Position numbers and translations under genes: made by a program. From Kiloniellaceae bacterium (GTDB lineage: Bacteria > Pseudomonadota > Alphaproteobacteria > Kiloniellales > J153): a DNA stretch of 36,031 nucleotides. Positions 1 through 4,312 of the stretch are shown piece after piece. A model generated the notes under the pieces. The model was given only the letters and a program-made list of their open reading frames with translations, was not told the origin of the DNA and did not search any database. The stretch's first letter is position 1. Every line of letters starts with the position of its first letter. The stretch is taken from assembly GCA_021776215.1 (NCBI GenBank), contig JAJFGI010000404.1, positions 1 through 36,031 on the forward strand, read 5' to 3'.

Positions 1-1104
1 ATCATCGTCGTGCCCGACAAGATGGCGCAGGAGAAGATTTTCCACCTCAAGGCGTTGGGCGCGGAGGTGATCCTGACCCGCTCGGACGTCGGCAAGGGCC
101 ATCCCGAATACTACCAGGACATGGCCGAGCGCATCGCCGGGGAGACCGGCGCCGTCTATGTGAATCAGTTTGCCAACCCGGCCAACCCCCTGGCCCACGA
201 GACCACGACCGGGCCGGAGATCTGGGAGCAGATGGAGCACGACCTGGATGCCGTCGTTTGCGGCGTCGGCTCCGGCGGGACCCTCACCGGGCTCTCCCGC
301 TATTTCGCCAAGGTGGCGCCCCAGGCGGAGATGGTCCTGGCCGATCCGGAAGGCTCGATCCTTGCCGAGTATGTGGCGACCGGCAAGCTGAGCACCGACG
401 TGGGCTCGTGGCTGGTCGAGGGCATTGGCGAAGACTTTCTGCCGCCGGTCGCCGATCTGTCGCGGGTGAACACGGCCTATACGATTTCCGACCGCGAGGC
501 CTTCCAAACGGCACGCGAATTGCTCGCCAAGGAGGGTATTCTCGCCGGCTCGTCCTCCGGCACTCTGATCGCCGCCGCCCTGCGCCATTGCCGAGCGCAG
601 AGCGAGGCCAAGCGCGTGGTCACCTTCGTGTGCGACAGCGGCAACAAGTACCTGTCGAAGATGTACAACGACTACTGGATGCTCGATCAAGGCTTCATCG
701 AACGCGAGCAGTACGGCGATCTGCGCGACCTTGTCGCCCGGCGGCACGCCGAGCATGCCACGGTCACCGTCCGGCCCGACGATACATTGCTGATCGCCTA
801 TGGGCGCATGAAGCTCTACGACATTTCCCAGCTACCAGTGCTCGATGCCGAGGATCAGGCAGTGGGCATCATCGACGAAAGCGATATCCTGCTCTCCGTC
901 ATTGGCGACGAAGGGCGCTTCAAGGAGCCGGTGCGCGGCGCCATGACGGCGCGCGTGCAAACCCTTCAGGCGGATCAACCCATTGAAGCCCTGCTGCCGA
1001 TCTTCGACGCTGGCCACGTGGCGATCGTGGTGGACGGTGACCGTTTCCTTGGCCTGATTACCCGGATCGATCTCCTCAACCACTTGCGGCGGCGGATGCG
1101 ATGA
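1..1104 (+). CDS. cbs: cystathionine beta-synthase, 5' end outside window
   Basis: Fold-type II PLP enzyme that condenses serine (or O-acetylserine) with homocysteine or sulfide in the cytoplasm; with the next gene it would make a transsulfuration route. The frame is open from base 1, so the start and the PLP-binding lysine lie upstream of the window; 367 residues are visible. The glycine-rich phosphate loop GVGSGGTLTG and the later SSSGTL motif are seen in the catalytic part. The last ~115 residues form two CBS modules (from ATVTVRPDDTLL to GLITRIDLLNHL), a regulatory pair characteristic of cystathionine beta-synthase and absent from plain cysteine synthase. The stop overlaps the next start by 4 bases (ATGA), implying translational coupling. 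A cysteine synthase with CBS domains is the alternative reading. Confidence 0.88.
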   Translation: MIVVPDKMAQEKIFHLKALGAEVILTRSDVGKGHPEYYQDMAERIAGETGAVYVNQFANPANPLAHETTTGPEIWEQMEHDLDAVVCGVGSGGTLTGLSRYFAKVAPQAEMVLADPEGSILAEYVATGKLSTDVGSWLVEGIGEDFLPPVADLSRVNTAYTISDREAFQTARELLAKEGILAGSSSGTLIAAALRHCRAQSEAKRVVTFVCDSGNKYLSKMYNDYWMLDQGFIEREQYGDLRDLVARRHAEHATVTVRPDDTLLIAYGRMKLYDISQLPVLDAEDQAVGIIDESDILLSVIGDEGRFKEPVRGAMTARVQTLQADQPIEALLPIFDAGHVAIVVDGDRFLGLITRIDLLNHLRRRMR

Positions 1105-2282
1105 CTGACGTGAGCAACAAGACCCGGCGGCAGAACCGGCCGCAATTCGCGACCCGGGCGATCCACGCCGGCCAGTCGCCGGACCCCAGTACCGGGGCCA
1201 TCATGCAGCCCATCTACGCCACGTCGACCTACGTTCAGGAAAGCCCCGGCGTCCACAAGGGCTACGAGTACAGCCGGACCCAGAACCCGACGCGCATGGC
1301 CTACGAACGGTGCGTGGCCGATCTGGAAAGCGGCAGCGCCGGTTTCGCCTTCGCCTCGGGCATGGCGGCCATGGCTACGGCGCTGGAGCTTCTCGATGCC
1401 GGCAGCCACGTGATCGCCGTGGACGACATCTACGGCGGCAGCTATCGCCTGTTCGAGAACGTGCGGCGGCGTTCGGCGGGGCATACCTACAGCTTCGTCG
1501 ATCTGTCCGACCTGGCTGCCATCGAGGCCGCGGCCCGTCCCGAGACTCGCCTGATCTGGGTGGAGACCCCGACGAATCCGCTGCTCAAGCTCGCGGATCT
1601 GGAGGCGATCGCCAACTTCGCCCGGCGCCGCGGTATCTTGTGCGCCTGCGACAACACCTTCGCGACCCCGTGGGTCCAGCGTCCGCTGGAAGTGGGATTC
1701 GATATCGTCATGCACTCCGCGACGAAATACCTGAATGGCCATTCCGACATGGTCGGCGGCGTCCTGGTTGCCAATGAAAACGCCGACCTGATCGGCCGCC
1801 TGGCCCACCTGCAGAATGCCGTGGGCGCCATTCAGGGCCCGTTCGACAGCTTCCTGGCCTTGCGCGGCCTGAAGACCCTGGCGGTGCGCATGGAGCGGCA
1901 TTGCAGCAACGCCCAGGCCGTGGCCGAGTATCTGGAGGCCCACCCGAAGGTCGAGCGGGTCCACTATCCGGGCCTGGCCAGCCACCCGCAGCATGCCCTG
2001 GCCAAGCGCCAGATGGCATCCTACGGTGGCATGGTCACGGCCATCCTCAAGGGCGGCCTGGCCGAGGCCCGGCGGTTCCTGGAGCGGGTCGAGGTCTTCG
2101 CCTTGGCGGAAAGCCTGGGCGGTGTCGAAAGCCTGATTGAGCACCCGGCCATCATGACCCACGCCTCGATCCCCGCGGAGATCCGAGCCCGCCTGGGGGT
2201 CAGCGATTCCCTGATCCGCTTATCCGTGGGAATCGAGGCCGTGGACGACCTGATCGCCGATCTGGAACAAGCCCTGACCTGA
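1101..2282 (+). CDS. cystathionine gamma-lyase / gamma-synthase family PLP enzyme
   Basis: Cys/Met-metabolism PLP-dependent enzyme of 393 residues, the usual family length. Visible family motifs are YSRTQNPTR near residue 58, the cofactor-stacking region FASGMAAM near 84, DNTFATP near 184, and the PLP lysine K209 in SATKYLNGHSD. The family includes cystathionine gamma-lyase, gamma-synthase and beta-lyase, which cannot be separated safely by eye. The overlap with a cystathionine beta-synthase favours gamma-lyase, completing reverse transsulfuration from homocysteine to cysteine; that functional choice is inference. The start is the ATG inside the upstream stop (ATGA). No strong terminator is visible after the gene before the motA control region. 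Confidence 0.85.
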   Translation: MTDVSNKTRRQNRPQFATRAIHAGQSPDPSTGAIMQPIYATSTYVQESPGVHKGYEYSRTQNPTRMAYERCVADLESGSAGFAFASGMAAMATALELLDAGSHVIAVDDIYGGSYRLFENVRRRSAGHTYSFVDLSDLAAIEAAARPETRLIWVETPTNPLLKLADLEAIANFARRRGILCACDNTFATPWVQRPLEVGFDIVMHSATKYLNGHSDMVGGVLVANENADLIGRLAHLQNAVGAIQGPFDSFLALRGLKTLAVRMERHCSNAQAVAEYLEAHPKVERVHYPGLASHPQHALAKRQMASYGGMVTAILKGGLAEARRFLERVEVFALAESLGGVESLIEHPAIMTHASIPAEIRARLGVSDSLIRLSVGIEAVDDLIADLEQALT

Positions 2283-2329
2283 CCCTCTGCCAAGCCTGGG
2301 TGCCTGGCTCAAACCCCCGGCGAGCCTGG

Positions 2330-2345
2330 TTAAACCGTTCTTAAC
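2330..2345. promoter_or_regulatory. CtrA-binding box (TTAA-N7-TTAAC) upstream of motA
   Basis: TTAA at 2330-2333 is followed by exactly seven bases and TTAAC at 2341-2345, a perfect match to the alphaproteobacterial CtrA consensus, centred about 62 bases upstream of the motA ATG. CtrA controls motility genes in many alphaproteobacteria. A loose -10-like CACAAT lies at 2356-2361. The motif is seen directly; regulation is inferred. Confidence 0.6.
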
Positions 2346-2399
2346 TCCGCCTCCGCACAATGCGGGCGCGGTGGTCCCAGAAGGGTTTTCGGGCGGAAC

Positions 2400-3295: not shown

Positions 3296-4312
3296 ATGGC
3301 CGACAAGGAAGAAAAGAACACCGCCCCGATCATCATCATCAAGCGGGTGAAGAAAGGCGGCCACGACGCCCACCACGGCGGCGCCTGGAAGGTAGCGTAC
3401 GCCGACTTCGTGACCGCGATGATGGCCTTCTTCCTGCTGCTCTGGCTGCTTCAGGCGACCACCGATGAGCAGAAGCTGGGCATCGCCGATTACTTCTCTC
3501 CGGCCAGCGTTTCGCGCAGCAACAGCGGCTCCGGCGGCATCATGGGGGGGCGAACGTTCACCAAGGAAGGCGCGAAGCCAAACGATCAAACGCCGGTGGG
3601 CGTGATGATCGAGATTCCGGCCGACCCGCCGGATTGGGACAACACCGGCGATCCCGACGAGACCGTAGCGACTGAGGAGACCGGCCCCGGCGGCGTCGCC
3701 GACGGCGCGCCCGAGCCGGAGGAGGATGCGAATCTCGAAGCCTTCCTGGCGCAACGGGAGCAGGAACAATTCGCCGCTGCCGAGCAGGCCCTGCGCCAAG
3801 CCATGGACAATATCCCCGAGCTGCGCAATATGGCCAACAACCTGATCATCGACGAGACCGAGGAGGGGTTGCGCATCCAGCTCGTCGACGAAGCGGGTGA
3901 ATCCATGTTCGCCTCGGGCAGCGCCAATATGTTCGATCATACAAAAAAGCTGCTGGCCCTGGTCGTCGACGTTATCAGGCAGATGCCGCAACAGATCTCC
4001 ATCAAGGGGCACACGGATTCGGTGCCCTATCAGAACTCGAACGGCTACACGAACTGGGAACTGTCCACGGACCGCGCCAATTCAGCGCGGCGGGGTCTCA
4101 TCGAAGCTGGCCTGCCGGCAGATCGCATCGCCGCTGTGGCGGGCCGCGCCGACCAGGAGCACCTGGACGAGGAAAACCCGAACTCGCCACGCAACCGCCG
4201 TATTTCCTTCATTCTTCTGCGGCACGACTCAACCGCCCGGGCACCGTCCACGCCGAGCCTGCGCATTCAGTCGGGCGAACTTCCCGCGCAGACCCCCACC
4301 CCCGCGCAATAG
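3296..4312 (+). CDS. motB: flagellar motor stator protein MotB
   Basis: Peptidoglycan-anchored stator partner of MotA, 338 residues. A short lysine-rich cytoplasmic N-terminus leads into the single membrane helix beginning at AYADFVTAMMAFFLLLWLL; D37 in this helix is the counterpart of the proton-carrying aspartate (E. coli D32). A long acidic, proline-rich linker (about residues 105-150) follows, then an alanine- and glutamine-rich helical stretch. The C-terminal OmpA-like peptidoglycan-binding domain (about 200-315) contains IKGHTDSVPYQ and LSTDRANSARR. GAGG lies a few bases upstream of the chosen ATG. The stator is of the proton type by sequence; sodium use is not excluded by eye. Confidence 0.96.
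   Translation: MADKEEKNTAPIIIIKRVKKGGHDAHHGGAWKVAYADFVTAMMAFFLLLWLLQATTDEQKLGIADYFSPASVSRSNSGSGGIMGGRTFTKEGAKPNDQTPVGVMIEIPADPPDWDNTGDPDETVATEETGPGGVADGAPEPEEDANLEAFLAQREQEQFAAAEQALRQAMDNIPELRNMANNLIIDETEEGLRIQLVDEAGESMFASGSANMFDHTKKLLALVVDVIRQMPQQISIKGHTDSVPYQNSNGYTNWELSTDRANSARRGLIEAGLPADRIAAVAGRADQEHLDEENPNSPRNRRISFILLRHDSTARAPSTPSLRIQSGELPAQTPTPAQ

Follow-up and report, generated by a model that had tools for sequence, protein, structure and literature searches.

The motAB operon of this Kiloniellaceae bacterium very probably starts from a CtrA-activated promoter at positions 2329-2361 of the window (the whole stretch of 36,031 nucleotides analyzed here, which is the complete contig C340), and it appears to share its promoter class with the family's early flagellar operons. 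Overall, this is a real and conserved CtrA-type promoter that looks functional, a new instance of an ordinary kind. The first-pass annotation had proposed that the stator is switched by CtrA independently of the rest of the flagellum. The CtrA-type box before motA bears out the CtrA part of this proposal, whereas the independence part is left unsupported by the presence of similar boxes at fliL, flgB, cheY, and fliF. On the sequence evidence, joint control of motor and flagellum is most likely, rather than a separate switch for the motor.

The motAB pair and its upstream box

The features of the locus are as follows.

1101-2282, forward strand: upstream gene, encoding a cystathionine gamma-synthase-like PLP enzyme (PF01053, 496.2 bits)
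2329-2345, forward strand: CtrA-type full site GTTAA-N7-TTAAC, symmetric, exact on both strands and found in 8/8 family genomes with a full-length motA orthologue
2356-2361, forward strand: putative -10 element CACAAT, with the A at 2357 as -11 and ACAAT invariant in 8/8, in the Rhodobacter sphaeroides layout
2368, forward strand: predicted transcription start, a G, placed from the position of the -10 element and the spacing of 23-24 bases in PMC6180460
2400-3266, forward strand: motA, stator subunit, 288 aa (TIGR03818 MotA1, 383.7 bits, cut-off 303.8)
3296-4312, forward strand: motB, stator subunit, 338 aa (NF006548 MotB, 267 bits, cut-off 277)

Both genes match curated stator models: MotA scores above its cut-off, and NF006548 is the best NCBIfam model for MotB, yet 10 bits short of the cut-off. 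The closest named relative is a Kiloniellaceae MAG (L001), whose motA is 88% identical. No flagellar or chemotaxis family besides motAB was detected among the 23 distinct window ORFs scanned (130 listed), so the remark in the first-pass annotation that no other flagellar genes lie nearby holds for these ORFs of the 36-kb contig. The gene order cystathionine gamma-synthase, motA, motB, RDD protein and arginyltransferase is found in all seven other family genomes with an orthologue, with stretches of it also seen in less closely related alphaproteobacteria. The solitary location of motAB is an ordinary one, an old conserved neighborhood, and a solitary chromosomal place is not the same as independent regulation. 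A second, distant MotA/PomA-like gene (L063 4072-4911, on contig C166 of the same genome) lies in the fliF-fliG-flbD-flhA region and matches NF006527 PomA with 222 bits, below the cut-off of 341. Hence, the genome encodes two stator-A-type proteins, of which the window motA is the MotA1 type.

A pattern search of the window recovered TTAAACCGTTCTTAAC as an exact match at 2330-2345, confirming the earlier observation of an exact TTAA-N7-TTAAC box ahead of motA. The full TTAA-N7-TTAA site of CtrA-activated promoters occupies 2330-2344, and the preceding G makes it symmetric (GTTAA-N7-TTAAC), so that the match is present on both strands. The box begins 47 bases after the end of the cystathionine gamma-synthase-like gene and ends 54 bases before the motA ATG. 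There is no second match within the window, and 100 shuffles gave a mean of 0.04 matches, with 1/100 reaching 2. The 3.85-Mb assembly contains 32 TTAA-N7-TTAA sites in total, versus 19 for the reversed control pattern, and the fully symmetric form is present at six places. An exact TTAA-N7-TTAA therefore carries little weight by itself, its genome-wide enrichment being only mild.

Conservation and layout of the motA promoter

Some MotA match was obtained in 50 of the 58 related genomes searched. Within the family, a full-length motA orthologue is present in eight of nine genomes (own genome counted); none was found in G005, which is 81% complete. For these comparisons, L001 and L017 are the same locus and were counted once, G020 was left out as its motA is split over two contig ends, and G005, G019, G026, and G054, which gave weak paralogue matches only, were dropped as lacking a motA orthologue. 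Second motA copies in G008 and G023 (L046 and L047) were counted apart.

In all eight family genomes with an orthologue, motA is preceded by GTTAA-N7-TTAAC, whose first TTAA lies 67-74 bases upstream of the start codon. The first-pass annotation had counted absence of the box upstream of motA in relatives as grounds for rejecting its reading; within the family the box is there in 8/8 genomes, and it is missing or unrecognizable only in some more distant lineages. In a 70-column alignment of the eight family motA promoters, anchored on the box, only GTTAA, a single spacer T, TTAAC and ACAAT are invariant, and no flank column is. In all eight, ACAAT begins at a fixed distance, 16 bases downstream of the first base of the second TTAA. 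These columns would represent the footprint of a promoter, namely two half-sites and a -10 element. A chance match could be argued from the 32 exact sites in the genome, several of which adjoin genes with no obvious or known CtrA link (e.g., a sugar transferase and an outer membrane efflux protein), but retention of the box in 8/8 family genomes despite diverged flanks leaves this explanation a negligible probability.

The arrangement also resembles promoters that have been mapped experimentally. In R. sphaeroides, the site of mapped CtrA-activated promoters is described as ending 23-24 bases before the transcription start, with an invariant A at -11 (PMC6180460). Before motA, the box would lie near -35 of a sigma-70-type promoter whose -10 element is about 11 bases further on, and the start predicted at 2368 would be 24 bases downstream of the last base (2344) of the second TTAA. 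This predicted layout agrees with that of the mapped CtrA-activated promoters. A sigma-70 scanner gave no match at the motA promoter, which is the expected outcome if transcription depends on an activator and a -35 element is lacking.

We also considered a late flagellar promoter, dependent on sigma-54/FlbD or on sigma-28, in which the box would be incidental. FlbD is encoded in the genome (759.7 bits, cut-off 750), so a late promoter class likely exists. Nevertheless, in the 120 bases before the window motA, the best sigma-54 match has 4/10 mismatches and the best sigma-28 match 5/12 mismatches to the consensus, the place of such matches is not conserved among the eight family genomes, and the invariant columns of the motA promoter are those of the box and the -10 element. 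A late promoter is accordingly highly improbable here.

Outside the family, the motA upstream regions of some other alphaproteobacteria (L004-L008, L011, and L012: Pacificispira, Elstera, and MAGs) are without the box. Those of L006-L008 have another conserved stretch in common, which may mark a different promoter class or simply reflect close relatedness.

Other flagellar promoters and the CtrA regulon

Flagellar loci from all nine family genomes were scanned for boxes with at most one mismatch. No exact box other than that of motA occurs in the flagellar loci examined in the own genome, and a scan by exact box alone proved misleading, as it would have favored the claim of an independent stator; the one-mismatch scan together with conservation across genomes reversed that picture. 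In the own genome, the promoters of fliL (TCAATGAGTTCTTAACC), flgB (TTTACCGTTTCTTAAC), cheY (TTTACGCAGTCTTAACC), and fliF (TTAACGGCAACTTTACC) each have a box with one mismatch to TTAA-N7-TTAA. A -10-like element follows at the same distance as in motA for fliL, cheY, and fliF, and about one base further for flgB. Such near-box promoters are found in 7/9 (fliL), 9/9 (flgB), 9/9 (cheY), and 8/9 (fliF) family genomes; as these four were picked for having a near-box, they demonstrate a shared layout, not how common promoters of this kind are. The scan of flagellar operons for the same box, which the first-pass annotation had suggested, thus leaves independence unsupported: near-boxes with the same layout stand before these four genes. 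In the one-mismatch scan, the N7 spacing gave 56 of 281 family-by-genome matches, versus 5 for N5, 29 for N6, 31 for N8, and 17 for N9. We think that the N6 and N8 counts are too high because the same A/T runs match again in a shifted register, and since the spacing controls are not clean, our case does not rest on the one-mismatch count.

Two further features of the cheY promoter were seen. It is present on two contigs (L144/L122 near 15063; L143 near 1976), with the second half-site reading TTAA once and GTAA once, and one copy lies near the very end of contig C314. The two versions are probably a strain variant or an effect of the assembly edge.

A matrix trained on the 33 fliL, flgB, cheY, and fliF promoters, with no motA site included, served as the independent test. 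The place that it scores highest in the window is the motA box (14.7), against 10.7 for the top site elsewhere. When 160 bases before motA were scanned at p ≤ 0.01 (500 shuffles), matches were obtained in 8/8 family genomes, 27/37 genomes of other families in the order, 2/2 second motA copies, and 6/14 further motA loci from other genome contigs. The site is thus conserved upstream of orthologous genes within the family and in most of these other-family genomes. For eight of the ten same-order misses, 7 to 26 of the 500 shuffles reached the score; for the remaining two, L050 and L051, 241 and 73 did so. The 8/14 further loci without a site, which include Pacificispira and, with no more than 88 bases of upstream sequence, Elstera litoralis, indicate that this wiring is not universal.

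Taken with the near-boxes, the matrix result bears on the proposal that CtrA switches the stator separately while another regulator governs the rest of the flagellum. In its favor are the isolation of motAB among the ORFs scanned on the contig, the lack of an exact box at any other flagellar promoter examined in the own genome, and a known case of a stator gene wired separately: in Phaeobacter inhibens, ctrA and cckA mutants are reported to have the orphan second motA upregulated and the other flagellar genes silenced (PMC12363192). Given that fliL, flgB, cheY, and fliF have near-boxes with a -10 element spaced almost as in motA, and that a matrix built from these promoters finds the motA site, separate switching is very unlikely.

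The regulator is encoded in the genome. Its CtrA scores 426.8 bits with NF045991 (cut-off 350), and the receiver domain also matches the solved CtrA structure 4qpj. A ChpT-like phosphotransferase (PF10090 HPTransfase, 77.8 bits, cut-off 22.9) is present, as is a SciP-like DUF1153 protein (136.7 bits, cut-off 23.5) adjoining the fliF operon; DUF1153 is the SciP family. Exact boxes in the own genome (L073 1572-1727; L070 1786 and 3081) precede a CpdR-like response regulator gene and three SpbR-like genes, all from families with a link to the CtrA pathway, which suggests a wider CtrA regulon. Use of the box by another regulator with a TTAA-rich site could be argued from the shortness of TTAA-N7-TTAA and from the 11 Trans_reg_C matches in the genome, of which one is CtrA and 10 are further proteins. 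A regulator other than CtrA is nevertheless very unlikely to use the box, considering the exact boxes before genes of the CpdR-like and SpbR-like families, a box-to--10 spacing that fits mapped CtrA promoters, and a CtrA well above the model cut-off.

Several additional boxes were observed during these scans. A near-box reading TTAA-N7-TCAA and a -10-like TAGTCT belong to the SciP-like gene next to fliF (L148, minus strand, near 2588); near-boxes precede this gene in 6/6 family genomes that have it in the examined loci, where the control spacings N6 and N9 match too. In 4/4 genomes of genus g3, an exact box precedes by about 60 bases a 274-aa gene near the flagellins (L130 16766, L104, L139, and L141); the one copy tested had no Pfam match. 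Tandem overlapping TTAA-N7-TTAA boxes stand before two similar short genes on two contigs (L069 3271-3307 and L081 1980-2004), one of which is followed by an ORF that looks transposase-like by eye; this is possibly a mobile element carrying CtrA-like boxes.

A proposed mechanism and its place among known systems

We infer CtrA binding, activation, the start site and timing at motA from the arrangement described above. A CtrA~P dimer would bind the TTAA half-sites at 2330-2333 and 2341-2344, which would straddle the -35 position of a promoter without a recognizable -35 hexamer. Bound CtrA would then bring in the housekeeping RNA polymerase at the -10 element CACAAT, and transcription would begin near 2368, giving a leader of about 32 bases before motA. 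In such a scheme, the stator would be made in the same CckA-ChpT-CtrA wave as fliL-fliM, flgB, the flagellar cheY-like gene and the fliF operon with flbD, with SciP as the likely brake on this wave.

The motAB promoter adds a new case to a promoter class that is already known. The fla2 promoters of Rhodobacter (Cereibacter) sphaeroides are described with the same elements, i.e., a CtrA-type site near -35, a -10 element with a fixed A at -11, and 23-24 bases to the start, and the best predicted CtrA sites of that species include the regulatory regions of motA2 and motB2 (PMC6180460). According to the same source, motA2 and motB2 lie inside the fla2 cluster, whereas the window motAB stands alone between metabolic genes; the R. 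sphaeroides flgB2 and fliI2 sites have a spacing of six bases, whereas the motA box has the standard seven. The class II flagellar promoters of Caulobacter crescentus, as outlined in the Background of PMC6180460, are alike in their TTAA-N7-TTAA sequence, its spacing and its position near -35; unlike those promoters as described there, the window box precedes a stator operon.

At a broader scale, Rhodospirillum centenum and Magnetospirillum magneticum (Rhodospirillales) offer a parallel in which CtrA is wired to flagellar genes in an early-branching group (PMC8116508). The same paper reports CtrA control of flagellar genes in all studied orders, Rhodospirillales included, and proposes that CtrA first served to control motility; its passages on CtrA and motility consulted here do not mention Kiloniellaceae. 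Cell motility is among the enriched categories of predicted CtrA regulons (PMC2877005). No published account of a CtrA-controlled motAB operon in Kiloniellaceae was found among the papers screened, as judged by titles and abstract openings.

One refinement arises from box quality. The perfect symmetric motA box in 8/8 family genomes contrasts with the imperfect boxes at basal-body promoters, and no other flagellar promoter examined in the own genome has an exact one, so that the stator could conceivably respond to a different CtrA~P threshold. That the stator, within the common CtrA regulon, is turned on at lower CtrA~P or held longer than the rest of the flagellum is an idea that we hold as rather doubtful; if true, it would mean control of timing or torque through box affinity, without a separate regulator. 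The quality of the box at motA relative to basal-body promoters is a simple, testable lead on expression order.

The probable CtrA-activated promoter described here would make the Kiloniellaceae stator genes part of the CtrA flagellar regulon, which fits the published view of motility as the ancestral role of CtrA. It would also mean that a solitary stator operon can stay tied to the flagellar program through promoter type alone.
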